A DNA stretch of 43,334 bases from an uncultured beta proteobacterium (GTDB lineage: Bacteria; Pseudomonadota; Gammaproteobacteria; Burkholderiales; Burkholderiaceae_C): the NCBI GenBank assembly GCA_903924955.1, contig CAIYDK010000075.1, positions 1-43,334 of the forward strand, written 5' to 3'. The notes under the pieces were generated by a model, which made no database searches, had not been told where the DNA came from, and worked only from the letters and a program-made list of their open reading frames with translations. Below are positions 35,632 through 39,996 of this stretch, one piece after another (position 1 is the first letter of the stretch; the number at the start of each line of letters is the position of its first letter). The position numbers and the translations under genes were made by a program.

Positions 35632-35736
35632 GTTTCTATGCGCCATTCTGCGCTTGTTAGCTGCCGGGGCGTCCTAGGGTTTTTGCGGGTATGGGCGTGC
35701 CGTGAGTCGCTTTGGTGTCTCGCCAGGCAGGTTTGA

Positions 35737-35742
35737 TACACT
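35737..35742 (+). promoter_or_regulatory. Candidate extended -10 (TGaTACACT) for trpE leader transcript
   Basis: tttgatacactggccccATG: extended -10 placed about 7 nt before a leader ORF start. Confidence 0.35.
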
Positions 35743-35748
35743 GGCCCC

Positions 35749-35853
35749 ATGTTCATTCACCGCATCTTCATTACGGGTTGTAGCGACCGGGGGGCCTGGC
35801 CCTGGCGTACGCTGACCGTCATGCCTGAGCCCATAGCCGCGTACGGCGCCTGA
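35749..35853 (+). promoter_or_regulatory. Candidate Trp leader ORF / attenuator region upstream of trpE
   Basis: MFIHRIFITGCSDRGAWPWRTLTVMPEPIAAYGA* with TGG-CCC-TGG followed at once by GCGTACGC, then CGCGTACG and GTACGCG segments able to pair alternatively. Confidence 0.5.
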
Positions 35854-36000
35854 ATTTTTTCGGGTCAATGTACGCGCTGCGCGCCCCCAGTCTTTCCCGT
35901 TAAACCCAGGGAAATCGGTTTGAATGAAGGCGCACCCTGCCTGTGACGGGGATGCGCTGGCGGCCTCAGTGGCGGCCGTGCAGATGAGAGGTAATACCCC

Positions 36001-37536
36001 GTGATTTCCGAACCCGAATTTCAAGCGCTGGCGTCCCAGGGCTTCAATCGCATCCCCTTGATGGCGCAGGCCTTTGCTGACCTGGAAACGCCGCTCTCGC
36101 TGTACCTGAAATTGGCCCATATGCCAGGCGAGTCCGGTGCGACCGATGCCGACACCGGCAAAAACAGCTTTCTGCTGGAGTCTGTGGTGGGGGGTGAACG
36201 CTTTGGTCGCTACAGTTTCATTGGTCTGCCGGCGCGCACTTTGTTGCGCGCCAGTGGATTCGGCGCTGATGCCCTGACCGAGGTGGTGACCGACGGTGTG
36301 GTGGTTGAGACGTCCAAAGTCAATCCACTCGACTTCATTGCCAGTTACCAGAAGCGTTTCAAAGTGGCGCTGCGCCCCGGGCTGCCCCGGTTCTGTGGCG
36401 GACTGGCCGGCTACTTTGGCTATGACGCGGTGCGCTATATCGAGAAGAAGCTCGAAGCCAGTTGCCCACCTGACGAATTGGGCTGCCCCGACATTCTGTT
36501 GCTACAGTGTGAAGAGCTGGCCGTCATTGATAACCTGTCGGGCAAGCTGTACCTGATCGTCTATGCCGACCCCGGCCAGAGCGAGGCGTATTCGCGCGGC
36601 AAGCGCCGTCTGCGGGAATTGAAAGAGCGGCTGGCCCAGGCGGTCAGCATTCCCGCAGTGAAGCCAACACGCAGCTACCCGGCGCAACGCGACTTTGCCA
36701 AGGCCGACTACATTGCCGCGGTGGAGCGCGCCAAGGAGTTGATTGCCGGTGGCGACTTCATGCAGGTGCAGGTGGGCCAGCGCATCAAGAAGCGCTACAC
36801 CGAGTCACCACTGAGCCTGTACCGGGCGCTGCGGTCGCTGAACCCCAGCCCCTACATGTATTACTACCACTTTGGGGACTTTCATGTGGTGGGGGCTTCG
36901 CCGGAGATTTTGGTGCGCCAGGAGCTGGTCACTACCGAAGAATCAGTATCCACCAAGGTCACCATCCGGCCATTGGCCGGCACCCGCCCCCGTGGCGCCA
37001 CGCCTGAACTGGACAAGGCTGCCGAGGCCGAGCTGGTGGGTGACCCCAAGGAGCGCGCCGAGCACGTGATGCTGATCGACCTGGCGCGCAACGACATCGG
37101 CCGTATTGCCAAGGTCGGCAGCGTCAAGGTATCGGATGCCTTTTGTGTAGAGCGATACAGCCATGTCATGCACATTGTGAGCAACGTCGAGGGCATATTG
37201 CTCGATGGCATGACCAGCATGGACGTGCTCAAGGCGACCTTTCCCGCGGGCACGTTGACCGGAGCGCCCAAGGTGCATGCCATGGAGTTGATCGATCAGT
37301 TGGAGCCCACCAAGCGAGGTCTATACGGCGGTGCCTGTGGCTACCTGAGCTACGCCGGCGATATGGACGTGGCCATTGCCATCCGCACCGGCATTATCAA
37401 AAATGACATTCTGTACGTGCAGGCCGCCGCCGGCGTGGTGGCCGACAGCGTGCCCGAGCTGGAATGGAAGGAAACCGAAGCCAAGGCGCGTGCCCTGTTG
37501 CGCGCGGCGGAACTGGTCGAGGAGGGACTGGAATGA
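36001..37536 (+). CDS. trpE: Anthranilate synthase component I (GTG start)
   Basis: [71 protein letters not shown] gagagg 35986-35991. Confidence 0.97.
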
Positions 37537-38174: not shown

Positions 38175-39323
38175 ATGACTAAAATTATCGATCTACGCAG
38201 TGACACCGTCACCCAACCCACCCCTGCCATGCGTGCGGCCATGTTGGCAGCGCCCCTGGGGGATGATGTGTTTGGCGACGACCCCAGCGTCAACGCCTTG
38301 CAGGAGAAGATTGCCGCCATGCTGGGCTTTGAGGCGGCGCTCTTTATGCCCACCGGCACCCAAAGCAATCTGTGCGCGCTGCTGGCCCACTGTGGACGCG
38401 GTGACGAGTACATCGTGGGTCAACTGGCCCACACTTACCGCTATGAAGGCGGCGGTGCGGCGGTGCTGGGCAGCATTCAGCCCCAGCCACTGGCGCAGGA
38501 TGCGAGCGGCCAGATGGCGCTGGCTGACATTGCGGGAGCCATCAAGCCTGACGACAGCCACTTTGCCCGCACCCGACTGCTGTGTCTGGAAAACACCTGG
38601 AATGGTCACCGCATGCCCATGGACTACCTGGCACAGGCCACAGACTTGGCGCGCGAAAAGGGCCTGAGCTGCCACCTGGACGGGGCGCGGCTGTTCAATG
38701 CTGCTGTCGAGCAGGCACTCGTGGGCGACCAGATTTCGCAGTCAAATACAGCTTTAGCCCCCGTGGAATATGCGCAGCCAGCTATTAATTTGGAAGCAAC
38801 GGTGAGCCAGGCACGGCGCATTGTTGGTCACTTTGACAGTGTGTCGGTGTGCTTCAGCAAGGGACTGGGCGCACCCATCGGTTCGGCTTTGTGCGGTAGC
38901 CAGGCGCTGATCGCTCGTGCCCACCGCATCCGCAAAATGGCCGGTGGCGGCATGCGCCAGTCCGGTTTGCTGGCGGCAGCGGCCTCGTATGCGTTGGACC
39001 ATCACATCGCCCGGCTTGCCCAAGATCACGCAATGGCGCAGCGCCTGGCGTCTGGACTACAGGGCATTGAAGGGCTCAGTGTTCGCTCCGCCCAGACCAA
39101 CATCGTGTTCGTGGAGGTGGCCAATGGTCGGGGGCCGGATTTGCTGGCCTATCTGAAAGACCATAGCGTTCTTGCCACTGGCCTCATCGGCTTGCGCTTT
39201 GTAACGCATCTGGATGTGGATGCCGTGGGCATTGACTACACATTGGACTGCATTCGCCGGTTTTTCAGGGGCCAGGCGGCTGCACAAACGGCACCCGCCG
39301 CGCCCGGGGCTGGTGTGTATTGA
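38175..39323 (+). CDS. ltaE: Low-specificity threonine aldolase
   Basis: MTKIIDLRSDTVTQPTPAMRAAMLAAPLGDDVFGDDPSVNALQEK; HLDGARLFNAAV; SVCFSKGLGAPIGS. Confidence 0.93.
   Translation: MTKIIDLRSDTVTQPTPAMRAAMLAAPLGDDVFGDDPSVNALQEKIAAMLGFEAALFMPTGTQSNLCALLAHCGRGDEYIVGQLAHTYRYEGGGAAVLGSIQPQPLAQDASGQMALADIAGAIKPDDSHFARTRLLCLENTWNGHRMPMDYLAQATDLAREKGLSCHLDGARLFNAAVEQALVGDQISQSNTALAPVEYAQPAINLEATVSQARRIVGHFDSVSVCFSKGLGAPIGSALCGSQALIARAHRIRKMAGGGMRQSGLLAAAASYALDHHIARLAQDHAMAQRLASGLQGIEGLSVRSAQTNIVFVEVANGRGPDLLAYLKDHSVLATGLIGLRFVTHLDVDAVGIDYTLDCIRRFFRGQAAAQTAPAAPGAGVY
38751..38797 (-). repeat. Family A repeat inside ltaE, reverse relative to the gene
   Basis: Reverse complement GCTTCCAAATTAATAGCTGGCTGCGCATATTCCACGGGGGCTAAAGC; encodes ALAPVEYAQPAINLEA in ltaE. 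Confidence 0.85.
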
Positions 39324-39336
39324 GGGGACTGCGGCC

Positions 39337-39996
39337 ATGCCACTGGACCAACTTCTGCTTTTTGTTGCAGCCGGCTTGCTGCTCAACCTCACACCGGGCC
39401 CTGACGTGCTGTACATCGTCGCCAACGCCCTGCGTGGCGGCGCCCGCGCCGGGATGGTGGCCGCACTGGGCATCACGGCCGGTTGCTTTGTCCATATTTT
39501 TGCCGCTGCCGTGGGCGTCAGTGCCCTGATGGCGGCGTCCGCCACGGCGTTCACCGTGCTCAAGTGGCTGGGCGCAGCCTATCTGGTCTATGTGGGCCTG
39601 CAATTGCTTCTGTCCAAAGCCGGGTCTGCTATCAAATTGGAAGCTTCTCACGCTGATTCCACGGGGGCTACCGGCCAGAATGCGTACAAGACTATTTTCC
39701 TTCAAGGCTTCTGGACGAATGCACTGAACCCGAAGGTGGCGCTGTTCTTTCTGGCCTTTCTGCCCCAGTTCATCGCGCCCGCAGTGGAGCACAAGCCGCT
39801 GGCCTTTTTGCTGCTGGGTCTGCTGTTCAACTTCAACGGCCTGTGGGTGAACCTGGGTTGGGCCATTGCGGCCGCCTGGCTGGCTAACCGGGCCAGCCTG
39901 TTCAAGAGCAGCCTGCACTGGCTGGACCGCGTGGCTGGCGCACTGTTCATCGGATTCGGAATCAAACTGGCGCTGACACAAGCGCCCAACGCATAG
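39337..39996 (+). CDS. LysE/RhtB-family exporter
   Basis: [67 protein letters not shown]. Confidence 0.93.
39628..39680 (+). repeat. Family A repeat inside lysE-type gene, forward, in frame
   Basis: GCTATCAAATTGGAAGCTTCTCACGCTGATTCCACGGGGGCTACCGGCCAGAA, encodes [18 protein letters not shown]. Confidence 0.8.

Follow-up and report, generated by a model that had tools for sequence, protein, structure and literature searches.

Predicted leaderless tryptophan-codon leader and long-range RNA helix upstream of trpE in Comamonadaceae and related Burkholderiales

The window, a 43,334-nucleotide stretch of DNA from an uncultured beta proteobacterium (contig CAIYDK010000075.1), includes trpE, a gene matched in 60 of 61 related genomes. 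Upstream lies a 34-codon ORF whose start codon (35749-35751) follows the TACACT of an extended -10 element after a 6-nt spacer, and whose stop codon is TGA (35851-35853). Within this ORF, the sequence TGG-CCC-TGG (35797-35805) supplies two Trp codons, at 35797-35799 and 35803-35805. An initial annotation had proposed a near-leaderless Trp attenuator at this site, and every element that it named (promoter, ATG, 34-codon ORF, TGG-CCC-TGG, pairing segments and T6 run) is indeed present where it was placed. The features of the region are as follows.

35734-35742, forward strand: extended -10 of the trpE leader promoter, TGATACACT, recognized by sequence (family consensus TTTGCTACACT)
35749-35853, forward strand: leader ORF of 34 codons, MFIHRIFITGCSDRGAWPWRTLTVMPEPIAAYGA and stop, predicted to be leaderless; the peptide begins MFIHRIFITGCSDRGAWPWR
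35752-35759, forward strand: 5' arm of helix P0, UUCAUUCA, codons 2-4, right after the start codon; predicted to pair with 35921-35928
35776-35788, forward strand: possible small hairpin P1, GGUU-N5-GACC, competing with P2 for 35787-35788
35783-35808, forward strand: likely hairpin P2, GCG-A-CCGGGG / AGCCUGG-type loop / CCCUGG-CGU, from folding and conserved pairs
35785-35808, forward strand: invariant core DRGAWPWR, whose two Trp codons are the putative stall site
35805-35876, forward strand: segments of the initial annotation, GCGTACGC (35805-35812), CGCGTACG (35838-35845) and GTACGCG (35870-35876), judged not functional
35855-35860, forward strand: T6 run, judged not functional
35921-35928, forward strand: 3' arm of P0, UGAAUGAA, about 75 nt before trpE, a perfect 8-nt complement of 35752-35759
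36001-37536, forward strand: trpE, anthranilate synthase component I, GTG start (Pfam Anth_synt_I_N and Chorismate_bind)

Farther along the window, the region between trpG and trpD (38175-39996) carries a gene of the beta-eliminating-lyase family and a LysE-type exporter gene. In another genome (G064:C1, about 2739306-2740717), trpE appears to be in two pieces with an internal TGA, which is possibly a broken gene or a sequencing error.

The leader is widely distributed. A DNA pattern for its core (AGYGACCGGGGNGCYTGGCCCTGG, with at most three mismatches) matched 228 of 301 genomes and 113 of 141 genera in the window's family, and an exact scan of contigs found the core in Comamonadaceae, Roseateles, Rubrivivax, Burkholderia, Paraburkholderia, Caballeronia, Pandoraea, Trinickia and others. 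Among the fetched loci, 181 of 187 matches are followed by trpE at a distance of 117-494 nt, and five of the remaining six end at a contig or locus edge. One match without trpE downstream, in a planctomycete MAG, looks like chance.

Because such pattern searches are biased, trpE was also located by protein, and its upstream DNA was then inspected, both in genomes of the family and in the wider order, where 23 further families were represented by one genome each. In this unbiased sample, the core x-[G/E]-A-W-x-W-R is found before trpE in 116 of the 126 genomes of the window's family: 106 have RGAWxWR, and another ten carry a variant (for example, QGAW, REAW or WGAW). Related leaders occur in Burkholderia/Paraburkholderia and in at least three further families. 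The leader is absent from a few genomes, and in three lineages (L270, L281 and L283) the same or nearly the same TTTGCTACACT-like promoter stands directly before trpE with no leader ORF; these are apparent natural deletions of the leader. A further variant occurs in family f20 (L377, L381 and L384), where the core reads ARGAWSWR or ARGAWCWR and T-rich stretches precede trpE.

In 183 of 268 loci, a gap of 6-8 nt separates the end of the -10 element (TANANT; TACACT in the window) from the leader ATG, so that transcription is predicted to begin at or beside the A of the ATG, which in the window means at or near 35749. Burkholderia-type loci lack this spacing, and their leader directly follows the upstream gene, so the leaderless prediction is not extended to them. 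Comparison across the family supports a Trp leader ORF of trpE, predicted to be (near-)leaderless, as in the initial annotation: the ORF, its WPW core and the promoter spacing are all conserved beyond chance.

Both TGG codons are invariant in the 97 unbiased loci, and the bases around them are constrained at the codon level as well. Arg14 is encoded by CGG in 85 of 97 leaders, compared with 8.6% of Arg codons in trpE of the same genomes, and Gly15 by GGA in 83 of 97, compared with 1.9% of Gly codons in trpE. The Gly15 position is GGR or GAG in all 97 loci, and Pro18 is constrained similarly, whereas Arg20 is free and uses all four CGN codons. Such synonymous constraint, drawn from comparison of many loci, implies that selection also acts on nucleotides. 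The part of the peptide that follows WPWR is not conserved.

Most of the codon constraint is accounted for by the P2 consensus, CC(G/A)GGG-loop-CCCUGG, in which the second Trp codon is paired. The stem runs from pair 35787-35805 to pair 35792-35800 and is extended by 35785-35806, 35784-35807 and 35783-35808. The core pairs are kept in 92-97 of the 97 loci, some with A-U in place of G-C or with G.U. In three loci (L250, L271 and L323), codon 18 is UUG (Leu) or UCA (Ser), which breaks the stem, and the purine at the third base of Gly15 is not explained by P2. Since its variation is mainly one-sided, P2 is a likely rather than a proven hairpin. An extension of P2 by covariation between codons 12 and 20 was considered, and the signal is weak. 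The overlapping P1 has its GGUY/GACC sequences kept in all 38 aligned Comamonadaceae loci with variation only between C-G and U.G, which lends it weak support. Positions 35785-35796 also form a purine-rich, Shine-Dalgarno-like run before the first Trp codon (CGGGGAG, CAGGGGG or CGGGAGG) that is kept despite amino acid changes; it may have an internal Shine-Dalgarno-like role.

A long-range helix, P0, joins the start of the ORF to an element downstream. In Comamonadaceae, the 5' arm (UGUUCAUUCA) overlaps or adjoins the start codon, and some 45-80 nt separate the 3' arm (UGAAUGAACG) from trpE. Complements scoring at least 8 bp were found in 47% of Comamonadaceae-type leaders as against 1% of dinucleotide shuffles, in raw counts that ignore phylogeny. 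In relatives, the equivalent 3' element varies in step with the start of the same leader, and compensatory changes are seen in three families. Examples from Comamonadaceae, where such changes occur in several genera, are UGUUUAUUCG/UGAAUAAACA (L249), UCUAAACA/UGUUUAGA (L264), GUUCAAU/AUUGAAC (L271) and UGUUCAUUCC/GGAAUGAACG (L267). In Burkholderia-type loci, codons 4-8 (AAC/U AAA AAA CGG) are complementary to the terminator tail, CCG-UUUUUU-G/A, and in all 32 loci the third, synonymous position of Asn4 is complementary to the nucleotide that follows the U-tract (C-G in 14 and U-A in 18, again raw counts ignoring phylogeny). In family f8 the arms differ in sequence, as in ACAACAAACG/CGUUUGUUGU (L366), AUAACAAAC/GUUUGUUAU (L365), CAAUAAA/UUUAUUG (L363) and ACAAAAAAC/GUUUUUUGU, and the partners mostly fit best with their own leader. 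P0 is absent or weak in some Comamonadaceae, and in Sphaerotilaceae-type leaders it is not significant (15%, versus 7% in shuffles, at 7 bp). The compensatory changes support P0 as an RNA helix.

Terminators differ between lineages. Nearly every Burkholderia-type locus has a terminator hairpin followed by U6, for which the P0 3' arm serves as the U-tract, and the Burkholderia leader fold has a z-score of -4.6; this terminator is well supported by comparison. A scan for intrinsic terminators in the window's family gave only sporadic hits and T-runs, none of which is conserved. Attenuation by termination is thus indicated only indirectly in that family, through Burkholderia and f8. The overlap of P1 with P2 is conserved, as is P0. 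A classical set of mutually exclusive antiterminator and terminator helices (1:2 / 2:3 / 3:4) was sought and none was found. Pairing of the P2 strands with downstream segments in the classical style received no support; the downstream-segment signals at -2 to 9 and -20 to -8 have z-scores of about -3, for which base composition or ancestry may account. RNAalifold detected no two-sided covariation in the Comamonadaceae alignment, because the downstream hairpins are badly aligned.

Two further putative structures were noticed in Comamonadaceae. A G+C-rich hairpin directly follows the leader stop codon in many loci (for example, L150, L123, L218 and L236), and its arms covary by eye: GCACCUGGG/CCCAGCGUGC, GCACGGGG/CCCGUGC and ACACGG/CCGUGU. 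An additional hairpin precedes the P0 3' arm in the alignment.

The RNA very probably lets the cell sense tryptophan shortage. Ribosomal sensing of the Trp codons is the best explanation because two Trp codons are invariant, a hairpin lies over them and a terminator is present in Burkholderia and f8. We consider it probable that the RNA is a leaderless, Trp-codon-sensing leader of trpE in which the fate of the RNA fold or of RNA polymerase is tied to ribosome stalling. Judging from the promoter spacing, transcription would start at or next to the ATG of the 34-codon ORF. The invariant codons suggest that the ribosome slows at UGG-CCC-UGG when charged tRNA-Trp is scarce. A ribosome stalled there would open P2, so that the rest of the leader refolds and entry of RNA polymerase into trpE is altered. 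In Burkholderia and f8, polymerase would very probably read past an intrinsic terminator, conserved or typical of the family, that separates the leader ORF from trpE. For the window's family, the likeliest outcome seems to be either Rho-dependent early arrest or RNA processing, although this is a guess. The finished leader would close on itself when P0 joins the 5' end of the ORF to the downstream element. This pairing could, and probably would, shut off translation of the leader after polymerase has passed, or seal the released leader as a stable small RNA, or both.

A stronger version of this idea, put forward tentatively, is that the growing transcript pairs with and silences its own leader start, in Comamonadaceae without the help of an intrinsic terminator. 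Only the first ribosome or ribosomes, starting before polymerase passes the 3' arm, would then report the tryptophan supply. If true, the idea would add a new layout, spread across Burkholderiales, to the known amino-acid-sensing leaders.

Other explanations of these conserved features were weighed against Trp-codon sensing by the ribosome. In the model drawn from the initial annotation, GCGTACGC pairs with CGCGTACG, which would alternatively pair with GTACGCG, and T6 acts as a terminator. These segments are present and complementary, and T6 is preceded, at a distance of 9 nt, by a hairpin of -8.9 kcal/mol, yet the second segment is found in only two of 27 loci from close relatives (the Rhodoferax group), and the third segment and T6 occur at the same place only in the window (1 of 27). 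Inverted repeats of at least 7 nt arose in 82 of 300 dinucleotide shuffles (27%), and the 131-nt leader of the window folds no better than shuffles (z = -0.53). The segments are therefore specific to the window and at chance level; as a conserved mechanism this proposal is already refuted, and we give it practically no credence. The more general expectation of alternative pairing segments survives in P2 and P0, which are not the segments originally suggested. It is similarly very improbable, if slightly less so, that the P0 arms are DNA sites, that is, an inverted repeat bound by a regulator. The Comamonadaceae arms GTTCATTC...GAATGAAC do adjoin the promoter. However, the arms change together at many positions, G.U pairs are present (GUUCGUUC/GAAUGAAC and UGUUUGUUCAU/GUGAAUGAACG) and the arm in Burkholderia and f8 is a transcribed U-tract.

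Two alternatives concern the product of the leader. The peptide motif RGAWxWR might cause nascent-chain arrest like that of TnaC, in which case stalling would be driven by the peptide, perhaps with free Trp as the ligand, and not only by lack of charged tRNA-Trp. Ala-Trp-x-Trp-Arg is constant while the termini vary, x is usually Pro, and this conservation exceeds what two Trp codons need. Nevertheless, ten loci have Gln, Glu or Trp in place of Arg or Gly while the purine-rich nucleotides are retained, Leu, Ser or Val can stand in for Pro, and the constrained synonymous sites indicate that selection on nucleotides is at least as strong, so we regard arrest by the peptide as improbable. Somewhat less doubtful, but still unlikely, is that the leader yields chiefly a small RNA or peptide that acts in trans, like Sinorhizobium rnTrpL/peTrpL, with P0 as a stabilizing closing stem. 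A leaderless trpL with such products has been reported for rhizobia (PMC7298713), P0 would close the RNA end to end and the Burkholderia 3' arm is the terminator U-tract. Against this proposal, all lineages found keep the leader in cis, ahead of trpE; moreover, a trans-acting product is compatible with Trp-codon sensing and does not exclude it.

The leader resembles E. coli-type trpL in being a short ORF, predicted to be translated, with neighbouring Trp codons before a trp biosynthetic gene and a hairpin that overlaps these codons. In Burkholderia only, it shares the intrinsic terminator before trpE, whereas the window's family showed no conserved terminator between the leader ORF and this first structural gene. 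It differs further in its predicted leaderless start (in Comamonadaceae), its RGAWxWR core, the P0 helix between the ORF start and the region after the hairpins, and the lack of a detectable classical helix set. Rhizobial trpL mRNA is reported to begin directly with the leader AUG and to yield trans-acting products (PMC7298713). The S. meliloti leader is similar in its start (predicted here), its Trp codons and its location upstream of trpE, but its peptide is different, with consecutive Trp residues instead of WxW, and the rhizobial attenuator has a terminator, unlike Comamonadaceae. TnaC, also a short leader, likewise has conserved residues surrounding its Trp and Pro; here, by contrast, the ORF precedes biosynthetic trpE and not tnaA, the conservation is partly at the nucleotide level and any arrest is putative.

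Published comparative work on proteobacterial attenuators has dealt mainly with gamma- and alpha-proteobacteria. No family in Rfam, Pfam or NCBIfam matches the leader, and the open-access papers searched, including some on attenuation and on Burkholderia sRNAs, describe no trpE leader of this group. From the sequence comparisons, the best reading is that the leader represents a new form of trp attenuation, which might have been described earlier outside the open-access literature. It predicts regulation of tryptophan synthesis in a large and ecologically important group comprising Comamonadaceae, Sphaerotilaceae, Burkholderia and relatives, a group whose control of this pathway is not described in the sources searched, and its core provides a recognizable signature for annotation. 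It also poses the testable questions of how a Trp leader acts without an intrinsic terminator and why an RNA would pair its beginning with an element far downstream.

Unrelated short, Trp-rich ORFs are located just before trpE in other Burkholderiales families (WRWR type, in L325, L329, L331, L332, L334, L338, L339 and L341) and, as a WW type, in one genome of the window's own family (L343). The WRWR leaders (for example, MTLRGNQFGWRWPRWR in L341) are similar to the window's leader as Trp-rich mini-ORFs immediately preceding trpE, but lack the RGAW core and are closer to the gene. These WRWR and WW ORFs are probably separate or diverged trp leaders. Also, in many families of the order the gene preceding trpE contains, near its end, a TATAGT -10-like element (L327, L331, L333, L336, L337 and L361), which is likely a trp promoter within the coding region.
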